Shown piece after piece: positions 4,801 through 33,287 of a stretch of 64,000 bases of DNA; the stretch's first letter is position 1; each line of letters starts with the position of its first letter. The stretch is from NCBI GenBank assembly GCA_019694875.1, contig JAIBBC010000001.1:1991501-2055500 (forward strand). Reading direction: 5' to 3'. The notes beneath the pieces were generated by a model. That model worked only from the letters and a program-made list of their open reading frames with translations, was not told where the DNA came from and searched no databases. The position numbers and the translations under genes were made by a program. Source of the DNA: Cyclobacteriaceae bacterium. GTDB taxonomy: Bacteria > Bacteroidota > Bacteroidia > Cytophagales > Cyclobacteriaceae.

Positions 4801-4978
4801 GAAGCCATTGGTTTCGAAAGAACCGCTGATTGCGAATAAGCAGTTTTATTTCTCAACAGACTTACCTGTTTCATCGACTACAAAGAGTAGCTTATTGAGA
4901 ATTGTTATTATGCACTTTCAGTTGGCCAAACCGCTCAATGATTTCTTAACCCAAGCCATTACTAAACCCTAAAACCTC

Positions 4979-6305: not shown

Positions 6306-6352
6306 CTGTAGTTAGTTTAGTTAAGCGTAGGAACCAAAGGGACGGACAGCAA

Positions 6353-8746: not shown

Positions 8747-8795
8747 ACAGCTTAAGCGTTAGCAGTGACTAGTAGTAGAAATGCAATGACCTGAA

Positions 8796-9320: not shown

Positions 9321-9422
9321 GTTGAACGGGCGATTAAGTTGTGAATTGAATCCACAAACCTGCAAATTGATGGACGGATGCCTTGTTCAAAATGATTTCA
9401 AGCTTATTCAAGAAAGGAATTT

Positions 9423-9430
9423 TAACTTTG
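9423..9430 (+). promoter_or_regulatory. Exact TAnnTTTG -7 box 4 nt before a start codon
   Basis: TAACTTTG matches the Bacteroidota -7 consensus, and the ATG of the next gene is at 9435, so transcription would start at or inside the start codon. Either the mRNA is leaderless, a later start is used, or the match is chance. No clear -33 TTTG is at the right distance. Confidence 0.35.
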
Positions 9431-9434
9431 TCTA

Positions 9435-10697
9435 ATGTCTTTCGAGGAAAAGGAGTATATAACGCTGTACAAAAAGCAAAAAGAGATTGAGTTAGGCTGG
9501 GGTGACAGCCAGACATGGACCAGCCAGGATTTTGAGAAACTCAGTGAACTCATCTTGCAGCGTACCGGTATTCGGTTAAGTGAATCGACATTAAAGCGTG
9601 TTTGGGGAAAGGTAAAATATAACTCTGCACCAACCGCCACTACGCTTAATACATTGGCGCAATTTTCCGGCTTTGCGGATTGGCGGGAATTCAAATCAGC
9701 CAATGAATTTAAACGTAGCAGGTTGTCTGACATTCCTGAGGTAAATCTTAGTCCCGAAAAGCATACAGTTCCTAAAAAACCCAAGAGACCAGTATTAATC
9801 ATGCTGGGTATTTTGAGTATCGCACTGCTTGCAGCTTTATTTGCGCTTAATGTTACTTCCTCCAAATCACCCAACCCGATTGACCTTTCACAGGTTAATT
9901 TTAATCTTAAGCTCGTGTCCAATGATCTTCCAAATTCTGTCGTTTTTGATTATAGTATTGGTGCTAATAGGGTTGATACGCTAAAAATTCAACAGTCGTG
10001 GGATCCTCAGAGACAGGAAATAATCTCGCCTTCCGGTAGCCAACATACTTCGATTTATTATTACCCTGGTTTTTTTATCGCGAAACTTATTGCTGACGAT
10101 GTTATTTTAAAGGAACGGGATGTTTTTATCAAAACAGACGGCTGGAAAGGTATTATCAGCCAGGCTCCGGTCCCCGTCTATCTCAGTCAGTCAGAAATCA
10201 ATCGGCAACATAACAGCATGTCACTCGAACGTGGTGTGCTGACAGCCAAAACCGGGAAAACTGTTTTTAATGACATATGGACTGATTTTTACAATGTTGG
10301 TGGATATCATGTATCCTCTGAACATTTTACGTTAGACGTTACACTACAGAATACGTCCACAAAAGAAGAAGCTGTTTGTCAGCAGGCACGTGTAACAATT
10401 ATTACAACAAAAGGTGCCATAGTTCTCCCGTTGATTGCCAAAGGCTGCATTTCTGCTATCTCTGTTTTTGATGGCGAAAAGTTAGTAAACGGGAAAGATT
10501 CAGATCTCTCCTTGTTTGGTTGCGATTTCTCCACGCCTCAAAAATTATCATGTCTAATGAGCAATCGTAAAATGATTATATTCTTGAACGGGAAGAAAAT
10601 TTTTACCTCTCAGCGAAAAACTGATCTTGGTACCATTGTGGGTATAGCAATAGGATTTGAAGGTACAGGAAAGGTATTTGAGGTTAAACTGAAGTAA
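9435..10697 (+). CDS. Membrane-anchored protein with N-terminal helical regulator-like domain
   Basis: The N-terminal 90 residues contain LSESTLKRVWGKVKYNSAPT and LNTLAQFSGFADWREF, a helical segment seen repeatedly in this phylum and resembling a helix-turn-helix. A lysine-rich linker and one membrane helix (about 120-142, LIMLGILSIALLAALFALNV) follow, then some 270 residues of extracytoplasmic beta-rich domain with a WDP...SIYYYPGFFIAKL motif. I infer a sensor that passes an outside signal to a cytoplasmic DNA- or protein-binding domain, but no family name is certain. Being divergent from the DUF2911 to concanavalin group, it may control those genes. Confidence 0.75.
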   Translation: MSFEEKEYITLYKKQKEIELGWGDSQTWTSQDFEKLSELILQRTGIRLSESTLKRVWGKVKYNSAPTATTLNTLAQFSGFADWREFKSANEFKRSRLSDIPEVNLSPEKHTVPKKPKRPVLIMLGILSIALLAALFALNVTSSKSPNPIDLSQVNFNLKLVSNDLPNSVVFDYSIGANRVDTLKIQQSWDPQRQEIISPSGSQHTSIYYYPGFFIAKLIADDVILKERDVFIKTDGWKGIISQAPVPVYLSQSEINRQHNSMSLERGVLTAKTGKTVFNDIWTDFYNVGGYHVSSEHFTLDVTLQNTSTKEEAVCQQARVTIITTKGAIVLPLIAKGCISAISVFDGEKLVNGKDSDLSLFGCDFSTPQKLSCLMSNRKMIIFLNGKKIFTSQRKTDLGTIVGIAIGFEGTGKVFEVKLK

Positions 10698-10731
10698 TTT
10701 CTTTTTCTGCTTTAACTAATCAAAGCGACAA

Positions 10732-12762
10732 TTAAGAACCACTTTTATGCTCAATCAATTTTAAGATCGCCATGTACTCATCGCGCAGCTTGGCTGCTTC
10801 CATGAACTCAAGGTCTTTCGCGGCCTTTTCCATTGCCTTCTTCGTTCGATCAGCCATTTTCTGAAGCTCATCTTTACCCAGATAAGCCACTACCGGGTCC
10901 GCAGCCAGCGAAACTTCTTCGCTTTCAACGTAGTAGTTCTTGGTCGATTTTTTAGAATCGGCAACTTTGGTCTGACCGAGAATTGATTCTTTTGAGCGAA
11001 TAATGGTTTTAGGTGTAATGTTGTTTGCCTGATTGTATTCCTTCTGAACCTGACGCCTGCGATTCGTTTCGTCAATAGCCGCTTGCATCGACTCGGTGAT
11101 CGTATCGGCATACATGATTACGCGGCCATTCTCATTCCGGGCGGCACGACCAATCGTTTGCACAAGCGACCGTTGATTTCGCAGGAATCCTTCCTTGTCG
11201 GCATCCAGAATAGCCACCAGTGAAACCTCCGGAAGATCCAGCCCTTCGCGCAACAGGTTAACGCCCACCAGTACATCAAAAACTCCAAGGCGTAACTCGC
11301 GTAGAATTTCGACACGGTCAAGCGTAGTAACTTCGGAGTGGATGTATCGGCATTTTACACCTGCACGTTCCATAAATTTAGTAAGCTCCTCAGCCATGCG
11401 CTTGGTAAGCGTTGTTACCAGAACACGCTCTTTTTTCTTAACGCGTTCATCTATCTCTTCCAACAGGTCATCGATTTGGTTTTTGCTCGGACGAACATCA
11501 ATTTCGGGATCGAGCAAGCCGGTAGGTCGAATGAGCTGTTCAACCACAACGCCTTCTGATTTCCGAAGTTCGTATTCCGCAGGCGTTGCACTTACGTACA
11601 CCACCTGGTTCATCATAGATTCAAACTCATTAAAAGTCAACGGACGGTTGTCAAGCGCTGCCGGCAACCGGAAACCATAATCAACAAGATTTACCTTTCG
11701 CGAACGGTCACCTCCCCACATAGCGCGAATCTGCGGCACGGTAACGTGACTCTCATCAATGATCACCAGGAAGTCGTCCGGGAAGTAATCGATTAAGCAG
11801 AAGGGTCTTGCACCGGGTTGTCTGCGATCGAAGTAACGCGAATAGTTTTCAATACCCGAACAGTAACCGAGTTCACGCATCATTTCCATATCGAACTCGG
11901 TACGTTCTTTCAAACGCTTGGCTTCGAGAAATTTTCTATCAGACTCAAACATCCCAACCTGGCGTACCAAATCGTCCTGGATTTCATGAATCGCCTGATG
12001 CAACGATTCTTTTCCGGTCACGAACAGGTTTGCCGGGAAGATGGTCACAACTTTTTCATCCGAGATCTTTTTTCCGCTTACCGGATCAATCCGCTGGATT
12101 GATTCAATTTCATCACCCCAGAAATAAACCCGGATGGCGTAATCGGCATAAGCGAGAAATATGTCAACTGTATCTCCTTTAACGCGGAATGTACCGCGCT
12201 TGAACTCTGCTTCCGTACGATTGTACAGAATATCAACCAGTCCAAAGAGTAAGCGGTTGCGCGCGATTGTTTCGCCAGCGGTGAGCTTAATAACATTCTT
12301 TCCAAACTCTTCGGGGTTCCCGATACCATAAATGCACGAGACAGAAGCTACTACCAGAACATCCCTGCGGCCCGTGAGCAACGCTGACGTTGCACTAAGC
12401 CGAAGCTTTTCAATCTCTTCGTTGATTGATAAGTCTTTTTCGATGTATAGATTAGAAGACGGAATGAATGCCTCCGGCTGATAATAATCGTAGTATGAGA
12501 TAAAATACTCAACCGCATTTTCGGGGAAGAAATTTTTGAATTCTCCGTACAGCTGGGCTGCGAGTGTTTTGTTATGACTGAGAATGAGCGTAGGCCGGTT
12601 GGTGCGGGCAATCACGTTAGCCATCGTAAAGGTCTTCCCTGACCCGGTTACGCCCAACAGGGTCTGATGCGGTTCTCCCGTCTCAATGCCATCAACAAGT
12701 TGCTGGATGGCTTTGGGCTGATCGCCTGTAGGAACGTATTCGCTGGTGATTTTAAAATCCAT
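10732..12762 (-). CDS. uvrB: Excinuclease ABC subunit B
   Basis: DNA-damage recognition helicase of nucleotide excision repair; it takes DNA from UvrA and recruits UvrC. The 676-residue protein has Walker A (GVTGSGKTFTMAN, about 38), the beta-hairpin region (YYQPEAFIPSSNLYIEKD), the DESH Walker B box (about 338), helicase motif VI (QTIGRAARNENGRV) and the C-terminal UVR coiled coil (LEFMEAAKLRDEY, about 645-660). The start matches the conserved DFKITSEYVPTGDQPKAI opening. It is a single gene between a convergent neighbour and the aroE terminator. Confidence 0.99.
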   Translation of the reverse strand: MDFKITSEYVPTGDQPKAIQQLVDGIETGEPHQTLLGVTGSGKTFTMANVIARTNRPTLILSHNKTLAAQLYGEFKNFFPENAVEYFISYYDYYQPEAFIPSSNLYIEKDLSINEEIEKLRLSATSALLTGRRDVLVVASVSCIYGIGNPEEFGKNVIKLTAGETIARNRLLFGLVDILYNRTEAEFKRGTFRVKGDTVDIFLAYADYAIRVYFWGDEIESIQRIDPVSGKKISDEKVVTIFPANLFVTGKESLHQAIHEIQDDLVRQVGMFESDRKFLEAKRLKERTEFDMEMMRELGYCSGIENYSRYFDRRQPGARPFCLIDYFPDDFLVIIDESHVTVPQIRAMWGGDRSRKVNLVDYGFRLPAALDNRPLTFNEFESMMNQVVYVSATPAEYELRKSEGVVVEQLIRPTGLLDPEIDVRPSKNQIDDLLEEIDERVKKKERVLVTTLTKRMAEELTKFMERAGVKCRYIHSEVTTLDRVEILRELRLGVFDVLVGVNLLREGLDLPEVSLVAILDADKEGFLRNQRSLVQTIGRAARNENGRVIMYADTITESMQAAIDETNRRRQVQKEYNQANNITPKTIIRSKESILGQTKVADSKKSTKNYYVESEEVSLAADPVVAYLGKDELQKMADRTKKAMEKAAKDLEFMEAAKLRDEYMAILKLIEHKSGS

Positions 12763-12806
12763 GGAGAAAGTTAATAGTTATTAGTTAATGGTAATGTTTT
12801 ACAAAT

Positions 12807-12851
12807 GAAAAAGGTTCAGGCACTGACACAAACGGTCATAACCTGAACCTT
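12807..12851 (-). terminator. Terminator downstream of aroE
   Basis: AAGGTTCAGG (12811-12820) and CCTGAACCTT (12842-12851) form a perfect 10-bp stem. On the minus strand the stem is followed by a run of T residues (complement of the A-run at 12808-12812), so it ends the aroE transcript before uvrB. Confidence 0.85.
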
Positions 12852-12875
12852 ACCTAATAACGATTAGCGGATAAC

Positions 12876-13619
12876 TTACTTATTCCAGATCGTCCAGGAT
12901 TTTTCGGCCTGAACGTGAAGCATTTCAAGACCATTCTTAATGGTCGCTCCGCGGATTTCTGCCTTTTGCAAAAACTGTGTGCGGGCCGGGTTATAAATCA
13001 GGTCGTACACGTAATGATCACGGGTGATGTGCTCGGTGCTGAGCGGAGGCATGGCACTTTCGTTTGGATGCATACCGAGCGGAGTGGTATTCACAATCAG
13101 ATTCGATGCTTCGATTTCGTTCGCGTTGGCATTGATCTCTTCGTAGGCATAGTCACCGGAAGCTTTATCGCGGGAAACAACTTTGAAAGAAATTCCAAGT
13201 TTGCTAAGAGCTTGTTGTACTGCTTTTGACGACCCACCGGAACCGAGAATAAGCGCTTTGAAATTTTTGTCTTTTGGGAGCCACTTTTCGATAGTTTCGA
13301 AAAAAGCGTCTGAATCTGTATTGTATCCTTTCAGTTTTCCTTTCTCAATCTTAATCACATTTACCGCTCCGATTTCTTTTGCTTTCGGATCGATTTCGTT
13401 CAGGTATTTAATAACCTGCTCTTTATAGGGAAGTGTAACGTTTAGTCCGCTCAGTGATTTGTTCTCCTTCAACAGCTTCTCGATGTCCTGAATTTTGGTG
13501 AGTGGAAACAGTTCGTAGTGATAGTCGCGCAAACCTTCCCGGAAGAACTTTTCGTCAAAATATGATTTTGAGAACGAGTGACTTACTGTAGCGCCAATTA
13601 GACCAAATATTTTTTCCAT
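12876..13619 (-). CDS. aroE: Shikimate dehydrogenase
   Basis: NADP-dependent reduction of 3-dehydroshikimate to shikimate in aromatic amino-acid synthesis. The substrate-binding start GLIGATVSHSFSKSYF, the catalytic lysine in GLNVTLPYKEQVI (about residue 65), the nucleotide-binding GSGGSSKAV and NTTPLGMHP are all present. At 247 residues it is slightly shorter than the E. coli enzyme, as is usual in this phylum. Its ATG is separated from the upstream DUF368 stop by a single base, so the two are translationally coupled; the pairing probably has no metabolic meaning beyond shared expression. Confidence 0.97.
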   Translation of the reverse strand: MEKIFGLIGATVSHSFSKSYFDEKFFREGLRDYHYELFPLTKIQDIEKLLKENKSLSGLNVTLPYKEQVIKYLNEIDPKAKEIGAVNVIKIEKGKLKGYNTDSDAFFETIEKWLPKDKNFKALILGSGGSSKAVQQALSKLGISFKVVSRDKASGDYAYEEINANANEIEASNLIVNTTPLGMHPNESAMPPLSTEHITRDHYVYDLIYNPARTQFLQKAEIRGATIKNGLEMLHVQAEKSWTIWNK

Positions 13620-17828: not shown

Positions 17829-18563
17829 TTAAAGTGTATTGTTCAGCAGCGGTAAAGATATCGCTTTTTGAAAGTACTTGTTCCTGCGTACGGCATCCAG
17901 CAGTTGAACATGCTGGAGATTATGGCAATCGCTTCCCAGGAAATGAACGTATCCTTTGTCGATGAGTTTTTGAGCTGTTAACTGGGCGCCTTTTGAATAG
18001 TATCCCGACAAGGATGACATATTCAGTTGAAACAAAACACCGCGCCCGAACAAATCTTCCGCCTTCGCAAAATTGTTTTGCAAATAGATGTAACGCTCCG
18101 GATGAGCAAGCACCGGTTTGTATCCTTTTGTGGTCGCCAGAAAAATGAACTCTTTCAGATTAAGCGGCTCCGTCATGAAATTCGTTTCGAACAACAGATA
18201 ATTTTTACCGAAGGTCAGCAGCGGCTGGTTGTTTTCAACACGCGAGATCAAAGCTTCATCCAGATAAAACTCAGCGGCAGCTTCCAGCGTTATCGCAATA
18301 CCTTTTTGTTTTAAATAAGCATTTGTCTCCGCGAGTTTCTGCAGAATCGTGTCATTTGAATTCCGGTAGAAGTCGCTCATCACGTGAGGGGTTGTTATGA
18401 GCTTGGTATAACCCAGGCGCTGGAACTCAAGAATTATGGCTTCACTCTCTTCCGGAGTTTGCACGCCATCGTCAAGTCCGGGCAGTAAATGGGAGTGGAT
18501 GTCGACAAGCGGAAAACTGTTCGAAGGATCAACGGGCCGTTGCTTCCGGAACCAGTTAAGCAC
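17829..18563 (-). CDS. PHP-type protein-tyrosine phosphatase (CpsB/YwqE family)
   Basis: Metal-dependent phosphatase that removes phosphate from the tyrosine tail of the cognate BY-kinase. The PHP motifs are clear: VDIHSHLLPGLDDG (about 21-34), TPHVMSDFY (about 60), LAHPERYIYL and GSDCHNLQHV near the C-terminus. The length of 244 residues is usual. Its start overlaps the last codons of the kinase gene by eight bases, a genomic pairing typical of kinase and phosphatase in surface-polysaccharide clusters. Confidence 0.94.
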   Translation of the reverse strand: MLNWFRKQRPVDPSNSFPLVDIHSHLLPGLDDGVQTPEESEAIILEFQRLGYTKLITTPHVMSDFYRNSNDTILQKLAETNAYLKQKGIAITLEAAAEFYLDEALISRVENNQPLLTFGKNYLLFETNFMTEPLNLKEFIFLATTKGYKPVLAHPERYIYLQNNFAKAEDLFGRGVLFQLNMSSLSGYYSKGAQLTAQKLIDKGYVHFLGSDCHNLQHVQLLDAVRRNKYFQKAISLPLLNNTL

Positions 18564-20871
18564 GTTTGAAGAAATTTTTAATTACGGATGTTCCGGTTTC
18601 TTTTTCGTAGTAGCCTGCTCCATAATACCCTTCATGTACCGGAGGCAGTGCGTTGAGCACAGTGGTTACGTTTGAAAACTTGTTAAGCTTCAAAACGCGC
18701 TGAAGATTCTTTAAGAACTCCTTCTTCGAATAGTTTGCTCTGAAAACATAGATTGAAACATCTGCGCGCTTCATGGCCATGATACCATCGGTAACAAGAC
18801 CTACCGGAGGGGTATCCAGCAAGATGAAATCATATTTTTCTTTGAGTCCTTCCAGCATGGTTGTAAATTCTCCATTCAGCAGCAACTCAGAAGGATTGGG
18901 GGGTTGGGGGCCTGACGGGATAAAGTCGAGGTTATCGATAGCGGTTTTTACCACGCATTCCTGCCATGTGTGTTTGCGGATTAGAACTGTGCTTACTCCT
19001 TTTGATTCATCAACCTCTTCCGACACCGGATTGCTTTTCGTTTTCCGCATGTCCAGGTCGAGCAACACCACCTTCTTCCGTGAAAGCGCCATAATGGCAC
19101 CCAGATTTAGTGCGATAAAGGATTTGCCCTCTCCGGATACGGTTGATGATATGGCGATAACTTTTTTAGTTGCGTTAACGCTAAAGAAATCGAGGTTGGT
19201 GCGAAGCGTTCGCATTGCTTCACTAACCATTGATTTAGGGTGATCAATAATGTGAATGCCCGGGCTGGGCTGTCTGCGAAGTTTTGTTACAACACCCAGC
19301 AAGGGAACGCCCGTGAGCCGTTCTACTTCATCGGCATTGGTAATCTTGTCGTTTACGAGATAGAGTATTCCGATTAAGAAAATGTTGAGTAGGATTCCGG
19401 CAACAAACCCGATTCCGTAAATGACCAGTTTTTTAGGTGCAATCGGAACAACCGGCAACGTTGCAGTTGACAGGAGTTTAAAATCAGGCGTGCTTCCGGC
19501 TTGTGCAATTTCAAACTCCGACTTATGCTGCATGAGGGTAAGGTAAATCTCCTCATTCAGCTTATAGAACCTTTGTTTTTTATTGAACTGTGTATTCTTA
19601 TCGGGCATGTTAGCGAAGGCATTTTCCAACCGTGACTTTGCATTGTTTAAATCCTGAAGGCGTTGCAGCCACTCATTTTTAAGGCTGGTAAGCTCCTTGA
19701 AGAGTGCATCGCGAATCGTTTTGATTTCGTTTTCCTTCTGACGGTATGCCAACGTGGTTTCGCTGTACGAAAGTTTTATGCGATCCATCTCCAGGATCAA
19801 AGGCTGTAACTTTTCGAGATTTTTGTTAACCGTTTCCGGGATTGCTTTACGCTGAACGTTATTCAGGTAGAAATCGCCCAAGGCAACGTTATTCAGCAAC
19901 TGATTGATTTCTGCAATACGTTTTGAAAGTTCGAAACGCTGCGAATCAATACGGTTAATCTGACTGATGGTTTTCTTGAGGTCTTCTTTCAGGTCGCTTG
20001 TTTTGTTCTTCAGGGTAAAGTTTTCAAAGTAATCTTCATACCCCGCCATTTCCGTTTCAATTTGTCCAAGCTCATTATTGAGCCAATCGATCTTTTGCTT
20101 ATTGGCCAGATTTTTTTGTTCGTTACTGTATTGCAGATATAATGAATCGATGCCGTTTACAAGGTCGCGTGCTTTCATCGGATTTTTATCCACGAACGAT
20201 ACGCGGATTGTTTTCGCATTGAAATTCAGCGGTTCAACACTGAGGTTTGTTTGCAGGTAGTCCAGCAACACTTCCCGGCTGTTGTAAACAAATGAATAGT
20301 TGTTATAACCCTGGAATATGCCTCCGGGAGTTTTATTCACAATCAATTCCGCATCACCAATTTTTATTGGTCTGCCGAACGGTCCGATTGCGGTCGGGCC
20401 ATCTTCTCCAATACGTAACTCCACCGTTGACGAATTCTTTTCTTCAATGGAGAATGAAACGTTGTGAAGTGTTGGACTTAATCGGATAAACGTTACCGTA
20501 AACGGTGAACTTTTGTAGAGCTCTTCGTTCAGAAAATTTCCCACACTGAAGTAACTGATATCGAGATCAAGCGAGTCAATTACCGTGTTCAGGAAAAGTT
20601 TGGATTGAATGGTTTCAATCTCACCCGAAATCAGGTCAAGATTTTTATCGGGAACCATTTCGCGAATGCCGAGCTCGGATGCATCTTGTTTAAAGTCGAG
20701 TTTGATTTCGGATTCCGACTGATAAACGTCTTTCGTATACCGGACGTAAAGTATGGAGACGGCATTGGCTGCGATGAAAATCAGGAGGAGCCACCATACA
20801 TTACTCCAGACAATGGTTCTAAGCTTCCCAAAGTCGATACTTTCAGACGTATTGTTCTTAAAATCTTCCAC
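18556..20871 (-). CDS. Polysaccharide co-polymerase with tyrosine autokinase (Wzc-like BY-kinase)
   Basis: A 771-residue inner-membrane protein that controls chain length and export. The N-terminal Wzz domain with its first membrane helix (about 28-48, NVWWLLLIFIAANAVSILY) is followed by a long coiled coil (about 255-460), a second helix (about 485-510) and the kinase domain, with Walker A SSTVSGEGKSFIALN near 575, Walker A' VVLLDLDMRK and Walker B FILLDTPP. The C-terminal tail has the autophosphorylated tyrosine cluster (GYYGAGYYEKE). It sits between the Wza-like and phosphatase genes as in capsule and exopolysaccharide operons. Confidence 0.96.
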   Translation of the reverse strand: MEDFKNNTSESIDFGKLRTIVWSNVWWLLLIFIAANAVSILYVRYTKDVYQSESEIKLDFKQDASELGIREMVPDKNLDLISGEIETIQSKLFLNTVIDSLDLDISYFSVGNFLNEELYKSSPFTVTFIRLSPTLHNVSFSIEEKNSSTVELRIGEDGPTAIGPFGRPIKIGDAELIVNKTPGGIFQGYNNYSFVYNSREVLLDYLQTNLSVEPLNFNAKTIRVSFVDKNPMKARDLVNGIDSLYLQYSNEQKNLANKQKIDWLNNELGQIETEMAGYEDYFENFTLKNKTSDLKEDLKKTISQINRIDSQRFELSKRIAEINQLLNNVALGDFYLNNVQRKAIPETVNKNLEKLQPLILEMDRIKLSYSETTLAYRQKENEIKTIRDALFKELTSLKNEWLQRLQDLNNAKSRLENAFANMPDKNTQFNKKQRFYKLNEEIYLTLMQHKSEFEIAQAGSTPDFKLLSTATLPVVPIAPKKLVIYGIGFVAGILLNIFLIGILYLVNDKITNADEVERLTGVPLLGVVTKLRRQPSPGIHIIDHPKSMVSEAMRTLRTNLDFFSVNATKKVIAISSTVSGEGKSFIALNLGAIMALSRKKVVLLDLDMRKTKSNPVSEEVDESKGVSTVLIRKHTWQECVVKTAIDNLDFIPSGPQPPNPSELLLNGEFTTMLEGLKEKYDFILLDTPPVGLVTDGIMAMKRADVSIYVFRANYSKKEFLKNLQRVLKLNKFSNVTTVLNALPPVHEGYYGAGYYEKETGTSVIKNFFKRA

Positions 20872-20880
20872 CGATACTTT

Positions 20881-21642
20881 TTATAATCCAACCAGCACGA
20901 TAATCAATGTGCTCAGGCTTACGGCCAGGCTCAATAACGGGCCGTAGTCACGGGCAGCTTCGCTAACAGGTCTTCTGACAGGCTCAACGTAAACGATATC
21001 TCCATGCTGCATAATCATGTTGCCTTTCCGGTAGCCTTCAATCGTACTGAAATCAACCAGGAAATACGTTTCTCCGCGCAGCACGCGAATGTTATGAGCC
21101 TTTCCAAAATTGTCGATTCCTTTTCCCATAGCCAGAACTTCAGCCAATGTTACATTTTCATTTACTAAAGGAACTACTGCACCTCCGGGAGAGCCGAGTA
21201 TAACAACACGTTTATTTGTGTACTGAAGAGTTACAAATGGATTCTTGTAAGACGAATCGGCATATTTTTCCTGAATTATCTTTTCTGCCTGGCGAATGGT
21301 GAGTCCAACAAGTTTTATTTCACCAATCATTGGGAACTTAACTACTCCGTTAACGTCAACCAGGTAGGAGGGATCAGGTCTCAAATTACCTGCCTGAACC
21401 GGGACCTGCTTTAAAAGTTCAAGATCGGGGTCGATAATTCGTTCACCTTTGTTTGTATAAACCGCAAGTTTCAGATAGTCATTAACCTGTATAACGTAAT
21501 TGCGTTGCGCCTCTTCCGCCTGTTGCTGCATGGCAGCCTGATCAGGCACTTTAAACATGATGTTTTGCTTGTACGATCCGCAGGAAGCGGCCATCAGCGC
21601 AACAAAGAAAAGAATCAATAATCTCGTAGGGCAGCCTCTCAA
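20881..21642 (-). CDS. Polysaccharide export outer-membrane lipoprotein (Wza-like)
   Basis: Poly_export/SLBB family protein that forms the outer-membrane channel for the polysaccharide. A lipobox LMAASC ends the signal peptide, and the mature part holds VIQVNDYLKLAVYT, the SYLVDVNGVVKFPMIGEIKL segment of the export domain and an SLBB domain (VVILGSPGGAVVPL). The C-terminus ends in a membrane helix, as in Bacteroidota versions. The frame extends to an ATG at 21750 inside rfbC, but that would put 36 polar residues before the signal peptide. I prefer a TTG at 21642, just past the rfbC stop. Confidence 0.85.
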   Translation of the reverse strand: MRGCPTRLLILFFVALMAASCGSYKQNIMFKVPDQAAMQQQAEEAQRNYVIQVNDYLKLAVYTNKGERIIDPDLELLKQVPVQAGNLRPDPSYLVDVNGVVKFPMIGEIKLVGLTIRQAEKIIQEKYADSSYKNPFVTLQYTNKRVVILGSPGGAVVPLVNENVTLAEVLAMGKGIDNFGKAHNIRVLRGETYFLVDFSTIEGYRKGNMIMQHGDIVYVEPVRRPVSEAARDYGPLLSLAVSLSTLIIVLVGL

Positions 21643-21665
21643 AACAATGGAATTATTCTGGCTCG

Positions 21666-22211
21666 CTAAATTAGCGATTTTCTTAACAACTCTTGGAGTG
21701 TCGGGAGCTTCGCATCCTTTTCTGAAAGAACTGGATTTTCGAAAGGCCATTCAATCTTAAGATCAGGATCGTTCCATACAATTCCGCCTTCCGCCTCGCG
21801 ATTGTACATGCCCGAGCTCTTATACAAGAAGATTGAATCTTCAAGTGCTGCAAAACCATGTGCAAATCCATCCGGAACCATTAACTGGTTATGACGATCG
21901 GAATCAAGCACGCAACTGAACCACCTGCCAAACGTGACGGATTCTTTCCGGAGGTCAACAACTACATCCAGTACTTTGCCCTGTAATACAGATACAAGCT
22001 TCGCCTGCTGCCAGGGTTCACGTTGAAAATGTAAGCCCCGAATAACACCCTTGCGGGAAAATGAAAGATTTTCCTGCGGGAATTGATACATGATACCGTG
22101 TTGCTGAAAAGGAGCTTCTTTATAAAACTCAAGAAACCATCCCCTGCTGTCTTGATAAACTTCGGGAACAATCTCTACTAAACCTGCTAATCCGGTTTGA
22201 ATAATTTTCAT
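21666..22211 (-). CDS. rfbC: dTDP-4-dehydrorhamnose 3,5-epimerase
   Basis: Cupin-fold enzyme converting dTDP-4-keto-6-deoxyglucose to dTDP-4-keto-rhamnose. The 181-residue protein shows FLEFYKEAPF, FPQENLSFSRKGVIRGLHFQ with the catalytic histidine of RGLHFQ, GKVLDVVVDLRKES and PDGFAHGFAALED. The other dTDP-rhamnose genes (rfbA, B, D) are not in the window. It lies ten bases after the glycosyltransferase gene and before the Wza-like gene, indicating that the exported glycan contains rhamnose or a related 6-deoxysugar. Confidence 0.95.
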   Translation of the reverse strand: MKIIQTGLAGLVEIVPEVYQDSRGWFLEFYKEAPFQQHGIMYQFPQENLSFSRKGVIRGLHFQREPWQQAKLVSVLQGKVLDVVVDLRKESVTFGRWFSCVLDSDRHNQLMVPDGFAHGFAALEDSIFLYKSSGMYNREAEGGIVWNDPDLKIEWPFENPVLSEKDAKLPTLQELLRKSLI

Positions 22212-22220
22212 GAAGCGGCC

Positions 22221-23330
22221 TTACGAATCTTTTAATACCGACAGTGTGTGAAGATACTTATCTATCACGATTGATTCATCATATTCGGCCTCCATTTTTT
22301 TGCGACCGTTAACACCCATCGCTTTCAGCGTATCGTCATCGAAGTTTGCCATGGCGCGCATTTTGGCCGCCAGGTCATCAGAATCCTTAAGATTACACAA
22401 CAATCCATTGATTTTGTCTTCGACTACCTGCGTACAACCTGGAACGTTGGTGGCCACGATGGGTTTGGAAGAGCTTGCTGCTTCGAGTAACGTTCGGGGA
22501 GTTCCTTCGCGGTACGATGGAAGCACAACGCAATCGGCTAATTCAATAAAGTGACGAACGTCTTTTGTTGTACCGAGATACTCAATAATACCTGCGTTAA
22601 TCCATTCCTGGATTATCTCGCGCTTAATTCCGCGTTTATGTTCAGGATCAATAGCTCCAAGTACCTGAAAGCGTGCATCCAGGCCTTCAGCTCTGAGTTT
22701 TTTAACAGCCTCAATGTATTCGAGGATGCCTTTATCGGTAATTAAACGTGAGATCAGTAGGAAGGTAAACTTTTCATTTCGCTTGAATGAAACAGGATGA
22801 AACTTCGTCAGATCAATCCCGGACCCTGGAAGAAGATCCACGGTGGCCGACGGAACCAGCTTTTTGTTGATAAAGAGGTTCAAGTCATCCGGGTTTTGAA
22901 AGAACACTTTTCTGGGAAATTTGAAGCTAACGCGATAAAGAAACATGGCAATCGCGGAAAGCAAATCGTTCTTGAGGAATACAGTACCCAGTCCGCATAC
23001 ATTATTGACGACAGGTATTTTCAGGAACGATGCAGCCAGTGAACCGTACACGTTCGGTTTAATGGTGTAATGAAGAATCACGTCAGGCCTGATCTTCTTA
23101 TAAATGGAATGGAGTTCAAAAATTAGAGCAAGGTCTTTTACCGGGTTTGCGCCCCGGCTATCCATCCGTACAGGGTGGTGAATACAGCCTGCTTCGGTTA
23201 AATGGTGTGTATATTCATCGTTCGGGGCAACTGTATGAACCTCGTGGCCCCCGGCTTGAAGTGAGCGAACAAGATTCATCCTGAAATTGTAGATATTCCA
23301 GGAGGTATTGAGCACTATGGCGACTTTCAT
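22221..23330 (-). CDS. Glycosyltransferase, GT4-like
   Basis: GT-B fold sugar transferase of 369 residues. It opens with KVAIVLNTSWNIYNFRMNLV, has the linker GSGIDLTKFHPV before the C-terminal Rossmann half, and carries the donor-binding EX7E region as PSYREGTPRTLLEAASSSKP (about 275-294) typical of GT4 enzymes. Similar proteins transfer N-acetylgalactosamine or other hexoses to lipid-linked sugars. It is the first gene after the promoter at 23402-23431 and thus leads the polysaccharide operon. Confidence 0.93.
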   Translation of the reverse strand: MKVAIVLNTSWNIYNFRMNLVRSLQAGGHEVHTVAPNDEYTHHLTEAGCIHHPVRMDSRGANPVKDLALIFELHSIYKKIRPDVILHYTIKPNVYGSLAASFLKIPVVNNVCGLGTVFLKNDLLSAIAMFLYRVSFKFPRKVFFQNPDDLNLFINKKLVPSATVDLLPGSGIDLTKFHPVSFKRNEKFTFLLISRLITDKGILEYIEAVKKLRAEGLDARFQVLGAIDPEHKRGIKREIIQEWINAGIIEYLGTTKDVRHFIELADCVVLPSYREGTPRTLLEAASSSKPIVATNVPGCTQVVEDKINGLLCNLKDSDDLAAKMRAMANFDDDTLKAMGVNGRKKMEAEYDESIVIDKYLHTLSVLKDS

Positions 23331-27999: not shown

Positions 28000-28059
28000 A
28001 TGGCTATGAAAGTTTACTTACTAGTTGATCAAAGTTCACTCAACCACTACAACCCATGA
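28000..28059 (+). CDS. 19-codon upstream ORF coupled to the SET gene
   Basis: ATG at 28000 opens a 19-codon frame whose TGA (28057-28059) overlaps the ATG of the SET gene at 28056 as ATGA. A purine-rich AGAGGA lies five bases before the ATG, unusual in a genome with few Shine-Dalgarno sequences. From its third codon the peptide reads MKVYLLVDQSSLNHYNP, which resembles the N-terminus of the ATP-grasp/SET fusion encoded downstream (MKVCVLQPDYSTTN, then NYDP). It could be a coupling leader, a remnant of a lost ATP-grasp gene or a small peptide product. Short length makes chance resemblance possible. Confidence 0.45.
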   Translation: MAMKVYLLVDQSSLNHYNP

Positions 28060-28592
28060 GCTTTCAAACAGGTAAGGGCAATGCTCCTGCCCAGAAAAAA
28101 GCAGAATCCAACCACTCTAATGTGATTACTGCTGTAGTTCCCACCGAAATTGCTGAAGTACGAACGGACATCCTGGCTAATAACCGTTCACTGTTCTCAC
28201 GCAAGAACTTCGCAGCCGGTGAAATCATCTCAGAGTTTGGCTGGCGCGCCATGTATTCAGAGCCCAGCTACCTCACGGTTCAGTTAAGCGACACTGAACA
28301 TGTTGAACTCTTCCCTGAATACCTCGAATGCATTAACCATGGCTGCGATCCAAATTGCTTTTTCGACACAGCTACCCTTCAATTGATAGCGCTTAAGCCG
28401 ATCAGCGAAGGTGAGGAGATGCGTTTCTTCTATCCATCAGCCGAATGGGATATGGATCAGCCTTTCGAATGCAATTGCGGTGCGAAAAACTGCATTGGCA
28501 CAGTAAAAGGCGCGAAATACCTAACCGACACACAACTTAGAAAATACCGGTTTACCGACTTTATACAACAAAAACTGGCTGCAAAAAGCTGA
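28056..28592 (+). CDS. SET-domain protein (putative lysine methyltransferase)
   Basis: A 178-residue protein with a compact SET fold. After a polar N-terminus of about 25 residues come SLFSRKNFAAGEIISEFGWR, the knot motif NHGCDPN (94-100), the GEEMRFFY segment (119-126) with the Tyr of the usual GEELxxDY, and a cysteine-rich post-SET motif FECNCGAKNC (C139, C141, C146), which with C97 would bind zinc. SET proteins transfer methyl from S-adenosylmethionine to lysine. The target is unknown; bacterial examples modify ribosomal or other proteins. It is two bases from the ATP-grasp gene and is homologous to the C-terminal half of the fusion at 29761. Confidence 0.9.
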   Translation: MSFQTGKGNAPAQKKAESNHSNVITAVVPTEIAEVRTDILANNRSLFSRKNFAAGEIISEFGWRAMYSEPSYLTVQLSDTEHVELFPEYLECINHGCDPNCFFDTATLQLIALKPISEGEEMRFFYPSAEWDMDQPFECNCGAKNCIGTVKGAKYLTDTQLRKYRFTDFIQQKLAAKS

Positions 28593-28594
28593 TT

Positions 28595-29764
28595 ATGAAT
28601 AAAGTTAAGGCTGATCTGAACGTGGCCGTTGCTCCGGTTCAGCGCTCAGGCCGCAGAAAAAAAACGGGCTTTCTCGAAAACAAGGATCAATACCTCGTAT
28701 GGATTCTTGCTCCCTATTTGGAAACAGAAGATCCAAACCTCAAATACTACTACGACTATACGCAGAGCATAGCCGAATACACGAAAGTGTTCGGAGAAGT
28801 GGGGTGCGAGTGGAAATGGCAGAATGTTACCATAAAAGATATCGAGAAGTCGGTGTTGCGGATAAAAAACTACCCAACCACCAAGAAAACCATCGTAATC
28901 AACTTATGTGATGGCGATGAATCCAATGCGGTACCGGGTTTATCGGTAATTGCCGAGCTTGAGAAGCATAACCTGATCTATACAGGCTCTGATGACTTCT
29001 TCTACGAAATCACCACCTCAAAGATTCCAATGAAGCAAGCCTTTGACTCCCGCAAGGTGCCAACGGCTAAGTGGAAGGTTATTGAATCCGGTGAGGAGGA
29101 CTATAAAGCCATCTTCAACGAAATAGGCAAAACCTTAATAGTTAAACCTGCTGTTTCTGCGGGAAGCATGGGACTAACCGTAAAAAACGTTGTCAGCACC
29201 CAGGATGAGTTCGAAGCAATCGTTAACGATATGCGCAGCGGATATCGTGGCTGGAAGCTTGACACAGGCGGAATTTTTGTGGAAGAATTTGTGAACGGCC
29301 GTGAATTTACCACGCTCGTGGTCGGATCATCAACCAAGCCGAAGTCCCTACACTGCTATACTCCAATTGAGCGGGTATTTCATAAATCGCTTCCCGAAAA
29401 AGAACAATTCCTTTCCTTCGACCGCCTTTGGGAGACCTATGATACTGAAAAGCCCATTGAGGCTGAAGGTTTTCTGTACAACTACAAAAAGGCAGATGAG
29501 GAGCTGATCGAAATATTGAAAGAGATCAGCATTAAGGCGTTCCGTTCGGTAGGAGGTATGGGCTATGGCCGTCTTGACATCCGTATGGACAAGAATACCG
29601 GAAAGTTTTACGTGCTGGAAGTAAATGCCCAGTGCGGCCTTAGTGAAGACGAAGACTACACTTCTATTGGCGCTATTCTGCGCTTCGATGGAAAATCTTT
29701 TACGCACCTAATCGTAGAAATCCTGGAAGATGCTGTTGCGCGGCATCAATCCAAACATCAATGA
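28595..29764 (+). CDS. ATP-grasp ligase, D-Ala-D-Ala-ligase-like
   Basis: The 389-residue protein has an ATP-grasp fold related to D-Ala-D-Ala ligases: NLCDG (103-107) in place of the HGxxGEDG element, IYTGSD (128-133), the ATP lysine in LIVKPAVSAGSMG (K184), GREFT (235-239), RLDIRMD (326-332) and the metal-binding LEVNAQC (341-347). The family joins a carboxylate to an amine through an acyl phosphate. The altered N-terminal motif and the 30-residue basic leader make a housekeeping Ddl unlikely. Its stop overlaps the start of the fusion gene (ATGA). Confidence 0.9.
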   Translation: MNKVKADLNVAVAPVQRSGRRKKTGFLENKDQYLVWILAPYLETEDPNLKYYYDYTQSIAEYTKVFGEVGCEWKWQNVTIKDIEKSVLRIKNYPTTKKTIVINLCDGDESNAVPGLSVIAELEKHNLIYTGSDDFFYEITTSKIPMKQAFDSRKVPTAKWKVIESGEEDYKAIFNEIGKTLIVKPAVSAGSMGLTVKNVVSTQDEFEAIVNDMRSGYRGWKLDTGGIFVEEFVNGREFTTLVVGSSTKPKSLHCYTPIERVFHKSLPEKEQFLSFDRLWETYDTEKPIEAEGFLYNYKKADEELIEILKEISIKAFRSVGGMGYGRLDIRMDKNTGKFYVLEVNAQCGLSEDEDYTSIGAILRFDGKSFTHLIVEILEDAVARHQSKHQ

Positions 29765-31248
29765 TCAATCTGCAAAAACGTATGAAAGTTTGCGTACTTC
29801 AGCCTGACTATTCCACCACCAACGTTGATTATAAGAACTACGATCCCAAACGTAATCTTTCAAGCCTGTTACCGCAACATCAGGTTGATCACGTTTTTCT
29901 GAATAAGCTGACTACCTACAAGCAATTGAAAGAGCTAAGCACGAAGGGATACGATATTTACGTGAACCTGTGTGAGGGCTACCTGGAGTGGGAAGTGCCA
30001 TCAATTGACGTAATCAACACACTCGATCTGCTTAACCTTCCTTATACCGGGCCAAATGCTGTGTTGTACGATCCGCCAAAGCCATTGATGAAATATGTGG
30101 CGTATTGTGCAGGAGTTAAAACGCCAGCTGCGGTAGAGATTACGTCTGTAAAGGATGTAAAAGAGGTACTAACCAAGCTCAGTTTTCCGATGTTTGTTAA
30201 GCCTGCAAAGGCTGGCGACAGCCTGGGTGTAGACGAGAAATCGCTGGTCAATTCTGAAGATGAGTTGAAGGCAAAAATCAACGCAACGTTGGCTGAATAC
30301 CCTGAACTGTTGGTTGAGCAATACATTGCCGGTCGCGAGTTTACGGTGTTGGTAAGTGCAAGTGCCGATGGTAAGTCGTGTGTGAGCTACAAGCCGGTTG
30401 AATATCTTTTCCCTAAGGGAAGGTCGTTCAAAACATATTCGTTAAAAACTTCTGAGCTTCACCCTGACTGTAACGTGCCCTGCAAGGATGCAAAAACCGA
30501 AAAGGCGTTACGTAAGGCAGCGGAAGCAGTGTTTACAGCATTCGGCGGAGTAGGTTACGCACGAATGGATTTCCGCATGGACGATAACAATGACATCTAT
30601 TTCCTGGAGATCAATTTTACGTGCTCTGCTTTTTATGAAGATGACTACCAGGGATCAGCCGATTTCATTTTGAACTTTGATCCAGCCGGAAAAAGTGGAT
30701 TTCTTAAAAATATTATCAACGAAGGTATTGCGCGGCACAGGTCAAAACAGAAGAAGTATGTTTTGAAGGGCAGCTCAGTTTCCGGGTATGGAATTTTCGC
30801 AGCCCGGACGTTGAAGAAGGGTGAAGTAATTTTTACCGGTGAAGGGAAATCGCAGCGCATCATTTCCAAAAAATTTGTTGACGCGAACTGGAACGATCGG
30901 CAGAAGAAGGATTTTCGTCATTACGCTTATCCGATCAGTAAGGAAGTTTATATTCTTTGGGATGAGAACCCGGTTAACTGGTCGCCACAAAACCACAGTT
31001 GTGATGCGAATACCGCATACAACGGACTGGACGTGGTTGCTGTACGAAACATTTCTGAAGGTGAAGAGTTAACACTTGATTACGCGCTTTTCCTGGATCA
31101 CAACATTGAGCCATTCAACTGTCAATGCGGTTCTGCTAATTGTCGGGGAGTTGTATTCGGTAAAAAAGAAAACTCCATTACAAAGGCAAACGGAAGAAGG
31201 ATAAAAATTCCGATTTATTCGGGTCCGGTAAAATCGAAAGCCAAGTAA
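29761..31248 (+). CDS. ATP-grasp and SET domain fusion protein
   Basis: A two-domain protein of 495 residues. The first 325 residues are an ATP-grasp ligase like the product of the previous gene: NLCEG (69-73), PYTGPN, MFVKPAKAGDSLG (K147), GREFT (191-195), MDFRMD (269-274) and LEINFTC (282-288). The SET domain follows at about 333-465, with SGYGIFAARTLKKGE, the knot NHSCDAN (411-417), GEELTLDY (434-441) and post-SET cysteines C454, C456 and C461. Both enzymatic centres look intact. The fusion joins in one chain the two activities that the preceding genes encode separately, strong evidence that ligation and methylation act on the same substrate. A basic tail ends the protein. Confidence 0.92.
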   Translation: MINLQKRMKVCVLQPDYSTTNVDYKNYDPKRNLSSLLPQHQVDHVFLNKLTTYKQLKELSTKGYDIYVNLCEGYLEWEVPSIDVINTLDLLNLPYTGPNAVLYDPPKPLMKYVAYCAGVKTPAAVEITSVKDVKEVLTKLSFPMFVKPAKAGDSLGVDEKSLVNSEDELKAKINATLAEYPELLVEQYIAGREFTVLVSASADGKSCVSYKPVEYLFPKGRSFKTYSLKTSELHPDCNVPCKDAKTEKALRKAAEAVFTAFGGVGYARMDFRMDDNNDIYFLEINFTCSAFYEDDYQGSADFILNFDPAGKSGFLKNIINEGIARHRSKQKKYVLKGSSVSGYGIFAARTLKKGEVIFTGEGKSQRIISKKFVDANWNDRQKKDFRHYAYPISKEVYILWDENPVNWSPQNHSCDANTAYNGLDVVAVRNISEGEELTLDYALFLDHNIEPFNCQCGSANCRGVVFGKKENSITKANGRRIKIPIYSGPVKSKAK

Positions 31249-31270
31249 TTTTTACTCTTTGAAAATCGAG

Positions 31271-31300
31271 AGGTCTGCGCCAGCAGACCTTTTTTGTTTT
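31271..31300 (+). terminator. Terminator of the SET/ATP-grasp operon
   Basis: A perfect 8-bp stem, AGGTCTGC (31271-31278) with GCAGACCT (31283-31290), closes a GCCA tetraloop and is followed by a run of T residues, a G and more T residues. It isolates the operon from the receptor gene downstream. Confidence 0.92.
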
Positions 31301-31412
31301 TAGACGGGCAATTGTATTATTTTGGATGATCGTGATGTCGGTAATTATTGTGATAATCAAAAAGTTACAAGCCTTGTGCGGAGTGTGGGATTTTCGTCTC
31401 ATCAGGCGCGCA

Positions 31413-33287
31413 ATGCTTGTTTGGTTGCTGTTGCTCTATACTTTTTTGGGGATTGCACAGAAACAAGTATTCATCTCAGACAGCATCGAACAACATATCT
31501 TTTCCTTTCAGGAAATTGAATACCTGGAAGATTCAACCCGGCAGTTGGGTATTGATAAGATTGTTTCACATGAGTACAGTTTAAAATTTCGACCCAGTAT
31601 ATTATTTAATCCCACCAACCCAAACCGCGAGTCGGCCTATTGGTACCGGGTTAAGATTAAGCACAAGCCTCAGACAAAAAAGAATTGGGTTATCGAGTTT
31701 TTTGATCAAACCATCGATCACCTGGAATTTTATGAGCCCATCGATTCGGTGCATTATTCGCGCGTTGTGTTGGGAGATGAATCGGTCTTTAATTCGCGTG
31801 AGACTAAGCATAAAAACTTCATTGTAAACTTAACGCCTCAGAACGATCGTGAGGTAATTTATTACGTGAAAGTTCAATCCCGGCAAAAGGCCGACATTCT
31901 GGTTGTACTTCGTTCGAGAGACTGGCTGTTTCAATATGCACTTGATGAATACTTCTTTTTTGGAATTTTTTATGGAATGATTCTGGTGTTCGGCTTCTAT
32001 AACCTGCTCATGTTCATTGCGGTTCGCGAAACTCACTACCTGTATTATTTCCTGTATATTGTTTGCGTGGGTTTGTACGAAATGAGTGCCGATGGCATTG
32101 CGTTTCAATATCTTTGGCCTGGATCACCCCGTTTAAACTATTATGCGCCCGGAATTTTCCTTTATCTGGCGACAACAACAGCGCTCATTTTTTCAGGCTC
32201 GCTTTTGAATTTGAGAAAAAAGGATAAGGTGATTTATCGGCTGTTTGTATATGCGTTCGTATTGCGAACAATTTTTTTGGTCATGAGTATCGCAATAAAT
32301 CCGGAATGGTTCAGATTCCGGTTCATTGAAGTGTTGCCATTTGCGGTCATTTACTACGCCAGCTTGCGAAGCTATTTCGCGCAACGTTATTCCCCCGCAC
32401 GTTTTCTGGTGGCTGCGTATACGTTTGTTGCGTTTGGAATTTTATACAAAGTGCTTCAGTATTTCGGTATTGAATGGAAACCGTTTGGAGAGTTGTCGCA
32501 TTACAGCCTTGGTTTCAGTTTTGTTGCCGAAATGCTTTTGCTGTCATTTGCGATTAGTGACAAAATAAGCGTGTTAAGTCTTGAAAAAACGCGGGCAAGT
32601 GAAAACATGATTGAACAACTTCATGAGAATCAGCAGCTCAAGGATAACCTGAACAAAACACTGGAGGAGCAGGTGTTGATCAAAACAGCGGAATTAATAC
32701 AGAAGTCTGCACACATTGAAGAGCAGAACAAGCAACTGGAAACGGCTAATAGACAATTGGAAGCACAGGCTCGCAAGATTGCTGAAATCAATATTCTTCT
32801 TGAACGCGATAATGTAAAGCTGCAGCATGATGTGGCGGAGGTAAAGGAGGCACGCGTGCTTTCGAAAGAGGTCGATTACGAGGAATTCAGTGCCACCCAC
32901 CCCACCGAAGAGAGTTGGATGAAGTTTTTGGCCGATGTGAAGTGGGTTGATGGATATTCTTGCCGGAAATGCCGCAATGAGGCATACGGTGCCGGCCGGA
33001 GTTTACATAGCCGCAGATGTACCAAATGCGGATATGACGAATCGGTAACAGCGTACACATTGCTTCAGAATACCCGGTTGCCTCTGGGAAAGGCGCTTTA
33101 TATGATTTTCCTGGTTTATAATTCCCGGGGAAGCATATCTTCCTATAAACTTTCAGAAATCCTGCATATCCGTCAAAGTACATGCTGGCACTACAGCTCA
33201 CGGATTAAGGCTCTATTGAATGAAAAGCGTAAAAGAAACCCAAATTTCTTTCAAACCGGGTGGAAATCGATCATCCTGGAGGGCTAA
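31413..33287 (+). CDS. 7TMR-DISM receptor fused to an IS1595-type transposase DNA-binding region
   Basis: Membrane receptor of 624 residues from the ATG at 31413, which gives a clean signal peptide (MLVWLLLLYTFLGIAQ); the frame opens earlier, at 31326. A 7TMR-DISMED2 extracellular beta-domain (about 20-165) precedes seven helices (about 175-385) and a coiled coil (about 390-480). In place of a kinase or cyclase, the C-terminus holds THPTEESWMKFLADVKWVDG, a zinc ribbon with C517, C520, C536 and C539, then TRLPLGKALYMIFLVYNSRG and a helical segment (KLSEILHIRQSTCWHYSSRI). That order is the N-terminus of IS1595-family transposases, without the DDE catalytic core. I infer a membrane-bound one-component transcription factor. 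Confidence 0.85.
   Translation: MLVWLLLLYTFLGIAQKQVFISDSIEQHIFSFQEIEYLEDSTRQLGIDKIVSHEYSLKFRPSILFNPTNPNRESAYWYRVKIKHKPQTKKNWVIEFFDQTIDHLEFYEPIDSVHYSRVVLGDESVFNSRETKHKNFIVNLTPQNDREVIYYVKVQSRQKADILVVLRSRDWLFQYALDEYFFFGIFYGMILVFGFYNLLMFIAVRETHYLYYFLYIVCVGLYEMSADGIAFQYLWPGSPRLNYYAPGIFLYLATTTALIFSGSLLNLRKKDKVIYRLFVYAFVLRTIFLVMSIAINPEWFRFRFIEVLPFAVIYYASLRSYFAQRYSPARFLVAAYTFVAFGILYKVLQYFGIEWKPFGELSHYSLGFSFVAEMLLLSFAISDKISVLSLEKTRASENMIEQLHENQQLKDNLNKTLEEQVLIKTAELIQKSAHIEEQNKQLETANRQLEAQARKIAEINILLERDNVKLQHDVAEVKEARVLSKEVDYEEFSATHPTEESWMKFLADVKWVDGYSCRKCRNEAYGAGRSLHSRRCTKCGYDESVTAYTLLQNTRLPLGKALYMIFLVYNSRGSISSYKLSEILHIRQSTCWHYSSRIKALLNEKRKRNPNFFQTGWKSIILEG

Follow-up and report, generated by a model that had tools for sequence, protein, structure and literature searches.

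The stretch of DNA described here, called the window below, comprises 64,000 nucleotides of contig JAIBBC010000001.1 from a member of the Cyclobacteriaceae (Bacteroidota; positions 1,991,501 to 2,055,500 of the forward strand). Within it lies a cassette of three genes arranged head to tail, namely a stand-alone SET-fold methyltransferase (SET1), an ATP-grasp ligase resembling D-Ala-D-Ala ligases (Ddl; the gene is named ATP2) and a fusion of both kinds of domain (FUS). SET domains are known mostly as protein lysine methyltransferases (KMTs). The cassette is real and goes beyond chance, as its order is kept in relatives and its genes occur together across 296 genomes. It is composed as follows:

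28056..28592, + strand: SET1, stand-alone SET-fold methyltransferase of 178 amino acids (aa), with an NHxC motif, Tyr126 at the SET catalytic position and the post-SET cysteines Cys139, Cys141 and Cys146
28595..29764, + strand: ATP2, predicted Ddl-like ATP-grasp carboxylate-amine ligase of 389 aa
29761..31248, + strand: FUS, fusion of a Ddl-like ATP-grasp part (residues ~1-325) with a SET part (~340-470), 495 aa
31268..31293, + strand: intrinsic-terminator-like stem-loop 3' of FUS, found by a consensus scan, with 11 pairs followed by a T-rich tail

Architecture of the cassette

SET1 and ATP2 are separated by 2 base pairs (bp) and ATP2 overlaps FUS by 4 bp. The Pfam SET domain is recognized in SET1 (5.9e-8) and FUS (4.6e-11) and the family Dala_Dala_lig_C in ATP2 (1.3e-15) and FUS (4.9e-23), in all four cases above the curated cut-offs. 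A preliminary description of this locus had reported three adjoining genes that end at a terminator, and both this arrangement and the ATP-grasp and SET motifs it cited are found. The stem at 31268-31293 is a consensus match only, since eight terminator-like sites occur in the region where 3.8 are expected. The proposed start at 28000 has to be moved to 28056, because the frame beginning there, which was considered as cassette start or as a precursor peptide, has 19 codons and is conserved in just one of 19 loci compared, that of the nearest relative (L048). Neither flanking gene was accepted as a member: a MacB/FtsX-like permease gene upstream is separated from SET1 by 492 bp, and between FUS and the 7TMR gene downstream lies the terminator-like stem.

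Distribution and gene order

The distribution was followed in 296 Bacteroidota genomes, the window's genome included, and in one scan of named genomes from which the best 80 FUS loci were kept, so that frequencies in the latter refer to close kin (L071 and L072 are separate contigs from a single metagenome-assembled genome; L and G numbers are labels of loci and genomes). Of the 296 genomes, which were sampled across the phylum, 15 carry a full-length FUS. At a threshold of 1e-10 matches occur in 127 of them, the other 112 having best E-values of 3e-21 or weaker and extending, among the matches listed, over the ligase part. In one related family (that of G115) 84 of the 294 genomes and 37 of the 101 genera yield a FUS match at 1e-60, a few of these rows covering FUS only partly; the cassette, as represented by FUS, is thus found in over a quarter of the sampled genomes of a single Bacteroidota family. 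Near the window's lineage its occurrence is patchy, since FUS was found neither in the two other sampled members of the genus nor in the five further ones of the family. By order, the 80 named loci divide into 38 from Chitinophagales, nine from Cytophagales, five from Sphingobacteriales, two from Saprospirales and 26 without an assigned order. Named carrier strains include Sediminibacterium magnilacihabitans DSM 22423 and Terrimonas ginsenosidimutans NA20, the former with and the latter without the ATP-binding cassette (ABC) gene described below. Carriage on plasmids was considered and rejected, as in seven plasmid records the match is confined to the ligase part and none covers 80% of FUS. 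An empty site in genus mates was rejected as well, the flank gene being just 35-38% alike in the two genomes searched.

The gene order is well conserved. In 78 of the 80 named loci FUS is preceded by ATP2, which overlaps it or is at most 163 bp away in 76, and SET1 lies upstream in 56, where it overlaps ATP2 or is at most 63 bp from it in 55. Among the 296 genomes stand-alone SET1 and FUS are found in 15 each and together in 14. The exceptions are G259, with a SET1-like gene (33%) and no FUS, and G211, with FUS and no SET1; the SET1 search (1e-10) matched 17 genomes, and the matches in G203 and G211 were excluded as other fusions. ATP2 is present in six genomes, all of them with FUS (ten genomes matched at 1e-25, four of which were excluded as matches to FUS). 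Counted by genus, SET1 and FUS occur in eight each with seven in common; the Fisher tests of co-occurrence take no account of kinship.

Where SET1 does not adjoin FUS it is often encoded at another site. Twenty such genomes were searched, namely G211, G212 and G292 together with those of 17 named loci; named loci that lack an adjacent SET1 number 24, and the other seven have short upstream contigs. A near full-length SET1 with 41-62% identity was found elsewhere or on another contig in 15 of them, of which a few may sit nearer than is apparent owing to short contigs; in the remaining five (G211, G357, G361, G363 and G368) only the SET of FUS was found. As SET and ATP-grasp activities belong to one conserved cassette, they probably serve one pathway. 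This agrees with the pairing put forward in the preliminary description, and the counts given above for FUS and for ATP2 beside it dispel the concern that the two domains rarely co-occur elsewhere. Its statement that SET domains are rare does not hold for this phylum: PF00856 is present in 140 of the 296 genomes, although in only one of 14 control genomes (an archaeon).

A second form of the cassette occurs in nine loci of the phylum sample (L039-L047), with FUS proteins 33-36% identical to that of the window. Seven of them comprise, in this order, SET1, FUS, a full ABC exporter (scanned in L039) and a second SET protein of ~120 aa. The exceptions are L045, where the contig ends inside FUS, and L042 with FUS and no SET1. 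In this last locus (G211, 8066-13099, - strand) FUS, here without SET1 or ATP2, is flanked on either side, several hundred bp away, by the genes of a gamma-glutamyltranspeptidase and of an N-formylglutamate amidohydrolase.

The ligases

The ATP- and Mg-binding residues of ATP-grasp ligases (a Lys pair, two Glu, Arg, Asp, Glu and Asn) are present in both ATP2 and FUS. In ATP2 the residues K143, K147, K184, E230, E237, R326, D328, E342 and N344 are kept in 77 of 77 relatives (those longer than 340 aa, from 82 found, with one genome counted twice), and in FUS K111, K147, E186, E193, K229, R268, D270, E283 and N285 are kept in 94 of 94 (likewise with one genome counted twice). With Ddl they have in common the fold, these residues and the conserved Arg of the YxRxD segment. 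They differ in the substrate positions: the His of HGxxGEDG is replaced by Glu or Asp, and the omega-loop KY is changed to KT or KW in FUS and to LW in ATP2, whereas both are retained throughout the 12 presumed Ddl rows. We take this His and the Lys-Tyr pair to be D-Ala-binding positions of Ddl. Additionally, both cassette ligases share a Cys at the third position past the metal-binding Asn, which is occupied by Pro in Ddl and in the paired tandem ligases described below.

In a tree of 84 rows the Ddl clade (support of 100 in the Shimodaira-Hasegawa-like approximate likelihood ratio test, SH-aLRT), ATP2 (100) and FUS (96) are separate, and FUS groups with ATP2 (88); the tree is from a quick search with a poor outgroup and an unsure root, and all its "Ddl" rows except L132 are presumed ones. 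Against the NCBIfam D-Ala-D-Ala ligase models ATP2 reaches 85 and FUS 93 bits, far from the cut-offs of 243 and 246, and RimK-type models score far below the Ddl models. A separate Ddl match in the window's genome scores 243.5 bits compared with 84 for FUS and 59 for ATP2. The predicted FUS structure has a mean confidence (predicted local distance difference test, pLDDT) of 75.7, with large stretches of the SET part and the tail modelled poorly; in Foldseek the 50 best matches listed are all D-Ala ligases or Van-type relatives, with template modelling (TM) scores of 0.44-0.53 by query length. From the missed cut-offs, the changed D-Ala positions, the separate clades and the far stronger Ddl match elsewhere in the genome it follows that the ligases of ATP2 and FUS, as judged from their sequences, are old paralogues and not housekeeping Ddl enzymes, an identity that the preliminary description had named as one danger to its proposal.

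The SET domains

Hallmarks of histone-type SET domains (the NHxC motif, Tyr at the catalytic position and the post-SET cysteines) are present in SET1 as well as in the SET part of FUS. In SET1 the residues N94, H95, C97, Y126, W131, M133, C139, C141 and C146 are kept in all 66 relatives longer than 150 aa (L034 and L076 stem from a single genome, which is thus counted twice), and in FUS N411, H412, C414, Y441, C454, C456 and C461 are kept in 94 of 94.

The best solved match of SET1 is BurB of Burkholderia thailandensis (PDB 9l4t and 9l4v), which according to its description (PMC12542666) converts free methionine to S-methylmethionine on a pathway leading to dimethylsulfoniopropionate and malleicyprol. 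The same paper reports that methionine is bound by main-chain contacts, that catalysis is proposed to proceed via proximity and desolvation and that the variant Y124F retains more than 60% of the activity. Like SET1, BurB is a stand-alone bacterial SET protein of ~175 aa, and the two share the Tyr position, an HSCxPN segment, the post-SET cysteines, a His before P-x-F and an IxGA segment. They are ~25% identical and, unlike the cassette SETs, BurB is not joined to an ATP-grasp ligase. In profile comparison with solved structures SET1 matches BurB (2e-18) far better than the first-ranked histone enzyme (1.5e-8). Its structural model has the SET fold (pLDDT 88.6) and places BurB at Foldseek ranks 1-3, with TM scores by query of 0.64-0.65 compared to 0.38-0.56 for the other 47 matches listed. 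Neither cassette SET is closer to KMTs than to BurB, clearly so for SET1, by profile and fold, and narrowly for FUS, by sequence alone.

The preference is reversed in other Bacteroidota SETs. A control of 16 common ones matches KMT2D best (2.9e-22); these were taken from the 30 best PF00856 loci and are thereby biased towards KMT-like proteins, and therefore a second control of five divergent SETs was added, one of them from the window's genome. It matches the chain 5h6z, named SETD7, at 1.6e-24 and a viral H3K27 enzyme at 1.3e-19, and BurB is absent among the 60 matches listed for each control set. In a tree of 69 rows (support as bootstrap/SH-aLRT) the cassette SETs together with the two SETs of locus L175 stand apart from 27 other Bacteroidota SETs (99/98); SET1 (97/93) and the FUS SET (97/99) form clades of their own, and SET1 groups with the small SETs (97/87). 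With regard to the question raised earlier whether ligase and SET copies were duplicated jointly, the trees show fused and stand-alone copies as old, separate clades for ligase and SET alike.

Since BurB is a free-methionine methyltransferase and the nearest solved relative of SET1, a small-molecule substrate appears likelier for SET1 and, less clearly, for FUS. The preliminary description had assumed lysine methylation; protein lysines as the default substrate are not supported in view of SET1, while for the FUS SET the difference is small.

Adjacent genes, transport and RNA

In 36 of the 80 named loci a relative of ABC_membrane_3 (PF13748) follows FUS at no more than 188 bp (Pfam scans of L034 and L037, the others by homology). 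These well-conserved proteins, such as those at 7884-8774 (- strand) of L034 and 11419-12300 (+ strand) of L037, are ABC membrane domains without an ATPase domain. The gene was rejected as an obligatory partner, an unlinked copy being found in just one of 19 searched genomes that lack the adjacent copy. The search for a further shared gene, which had been recommended, is thus answered by an ABC membrane gene in part of the family and by none that is universal, and the pattern suggests export by ABC genes in that part only, not as a requirement.

A conserved precursor-like open reading frame (ORF) was not found when 400 bp on either side of 56 cassettes were searched: among the families of small frames the largest comprises 13 of the 56 loci and is by position an antisense fragment of mnmG, the next comprises ten. 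No riboswitch or other RNA reaches its gathering threshold in the window and seven further loci, where only tRNAs were detected. PADLOC assigns none of its anti-phage defence families to SET1, ATP2, FUS or one ABC membrane protein, and ten scanned neighbours include no cell-wall gene.

Related systems

Predicted operons that combine ATP-grasp peptide ligases with amino-acid-modifying enzymes, methylases included, were described by Iyer and others in 2010 and proposed to serve non-ribosomal peptide synthesis (PMC2922099). The SET-ligase cassette can be considered a variant on that theme, as such associations were already known. The operons predicted there differ in having Rossmann-type methylases and other partner genes, and a term search of that paper returned no "SET domain". 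For the pairing of SET and ATP-grasp in bacteria no description was found in the literature searched, which does not comprise all likely neighbourhood surveys. A joint search for "SET domain" and "ATP-grasp" yielded only a paper on the eukaryotic protein TTLL12 and one on drug side effects, and in a review of bacterial SET proteins (PMC3980110) a term search of the available text returned no occurrence of ATP-grasp, ligase or operon.

Another parallel is provided by tandem Ddl-like ligases in nine loci of other Bacteroidota (L168-L174, L176 and L177). They are followed by a relative of lysine 2,3-aminomutase in all nine and stand beside a GNAT-type gene in seven (family scans on L171, the other loci by homology). 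As in the cassette, adjacent ligases are combined with amino-acid-modifying enzymes, the N and E/D positions are in common and the omega-loop Trp is shared with ATP2 and the second-form FUS; in contrast with the cassette there is neither SET nor fusion, and the clades are separate. Apparently they represent a separate amino-acid-ligating operon, and the literature search on tandem ligases with a lysine 2,3-aminomutase relative found no description.

In G203 (L175, 4989-8318, - strand) a fusion of 617 aa, combining SET, AdoMet decarboxylase and spermidine synthase, adjoins a SET protein of 483 aa. The SET of the latter groups with the FUS SETs (88/84), whereas the position of the polyamine-fusion SET is unstable: it stood with SET1 in an earlier tree (90/66; 11 of 25 common rows of that tree had been dropped by a narrow motif filter) and not in the tree of 69 rows. 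The ~300-aa tail of the 483-aa protein has stand-alone relatives in other genomes of the family and at three further places in G203. An ATP-grasp nature of this tail was proposed from motifs seen by eye and was not retained, as profile comparison gave no support and no solved structure matched. The L175 fusion and the tandem ligases hint that SETs on the cassette side may serve small amines or amino acids.

Proposed function and its alternatives

We suggest that the cassette is biosynthetic, its product being a short, methylated amide or peptide-like metabolite that is assembled from free amino acids or close amines independently of a ribosome or template, a proposal that we hold to be evenly poised between right and wrong. 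SET1, being BurB-like, would methylate a free amino acid with S-adenosylmethionine as donor. The ATP-grasp domains of ATP2 and FUS would activate a carboxylate as acyl phosphate and join it to an amine, forming up to two amide bonds, and the SET half of FUS would methylate a substrate, bound intermediate or product that is handled by FUS itself. In some members of the family this compound may then be moved across the membrane by the adjacent ABC-type membrane protein or ABC exporter. We infer the small-molecule rather than protein substrate, the order of the steps and the export. A narrower version, which we put forward tentatively, sees the SET enzymes as amino-acid methyltransferases fused to a ligase that uses their product and expects a methylated tripeptide-like compound (e.g., with S-methylmethionine or methylated lysine) that is exported in some hosts. 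A widespread bacterial cassette that links BurB-like SETs to amino-acid ligases would give the SET fold a second role, in small-molecule chemistry, and point to a metabolite common in Bacteroidota. SETs on the cassette side are also found fused to polyamine-synthesis enzymes, which hints that small-molecule chemistry by SETs may be a wider theme in bacteria. The SET-ligase cassette is directly testable with two or three soluble enzymes and the named carrier strains.

Several observations weigh against this proposal. The profile of the FUS SET is near-equally close to BurB (4.4e-13) and KMT2A (9.5e-12), and the likeness to BurB depends on one solved enzyme. Substrate-proximal residues differ, BurB Ser88 being aligned with an invariant Leu of SET1, and since BurB contacts methionine via the main chain a shared substrate cannot be read from sequence. 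All nine second-form loci are devoid of a detectable ATP2, so a pair of ligases is not required in every case. The transporter is not universal: 18 of the 19 genomes without the adjacent ABC gene have no copy elsewhere (1e-10), the window's genome being one of the 18 (of the 44 named loci without this gene 16 were included in the original selection of 20, from which L081 dropped out). Finally, the commonest neighbour is a PIF1-like helicase (38 of 80 loci) with no evident place in a metabolite pathway; in 13 loci it is encoded on the strand of the cassette and no more than 300 bp away (an example with HRDC and HTH domains is at 4031-6562, + strand, of L053). Together with mnmG (25 of 80) and nicotinate-nucleotide adenylyltransferase (23 of 80), which are never close on the same strand, it is read as shared synteny of related genomes, and ORF clustering finds each remaining family close and on the same strand in at most four of the 80 loci.

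An alternative that we regard as rather unlikely is a compatible-solute pathway, in which SET1 makes S-methylmethionine (or N-methylated lysine or ornithine) and the ligases cap it as an intracellular zwitterionic dipeptide. It would fit the BurB reaction and the wide occurrence without a universal transporter. Lysine 2,3-aminomutase and GNAT-type proteins are kinds known from the synthesis of the solute N-acetyl-beta-lysine, and both stand beside the related tandem ligases, but the tree does not place these ligases as specific sisters of FUS and ATP2 (its root being unsure) and a membrane transporter gene adjoins 36 of the 80 cassettes.

Modification of a protein or peptide tail, with SETs methylating protein lysines and ATP-grasp domains adding amino acids in the manner of RimK or tubulin-tyrosine ligase (TTL), is in our judgement unlikely. 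The known eukaryotic SET enzymes act on protein lysines, and the FUS SET is nearly as near to KMT2A as to BurB. A precedent is TTLL12, a eukaryotic protein that unites, as FUS does, a SET-like domain with an ATP-grasp-type one, here a TTL domain with ATP-grasp-like motifs (PMC3520985). TTLL12 is reported to lack critical residues and in vitro activity, whereas the catalytic residues are all kept in the cassette; it also differs from FUS in the opposite domain order and in being of TTL and not Ddl type. Furthermore, SET1 strongly prefers BurB, unlike both control sets, the ligases are Ddl-like with RimK-type models far behind, and among recurrent neighbours the helicase is, besides the ABC gene, the sole family found regularly beside the cassette on its strand (13 of 80), although a substrate may be encoded elsewhere.

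ATP-grasp ligases and methyltransferases also occur in pathways of ribosomally synthesized and post-translationally modified peptides (RiPPs), and the ABC membrane protein matches a bacteriocin exporter model weakly, far below its cut-off. That the cassette matures a ribosomal peptide, whether encoded in its vicinity or at another site, is nevertheless quite improbable in view of the flanks of the 56 cassettes, which hold no conserved small frame (only linked precursors were sought), and of the 19-codon frame before SET1, kept in L048 alone among 19 loci. A role in the cell wall, with the ligases making a D-Ala-D-Ala-like or D-Ala-X dipeptide for peptidoglycan and methylation of the wall precursor, has superfamily membership and the D-Ala and Van-type ligases among the 50 listed FUS matches in its favour and is very improbable given the separate strong Ddl match of the genome, the changed substrate positions and the missing wall gene among ten scanned neighbours; nothing was found that ties the cassette to cell wall or storage, as the preliminary description had envisaged.

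Other genes of the window

The next gene after the cassette (31326-33287, + strand) encodes a 7TMR-DISM membrane receptor. The C-terminal part of this protein resembles the zinc ribbon and the start of IS1595 transposases; the match is below the cut-off here and above the Pfam cut-off in a 38% identical homologue from a genus mate (L238). Farther upstream, on the opposite strand at 17829-23330 and before the gene of an HflX-like GTPase, lies a group of polysaccharide-type genes, which are Wzc-like, export lipoprotein and RmlC-like as judged by eye and glycosyltransferase according to Pfam.

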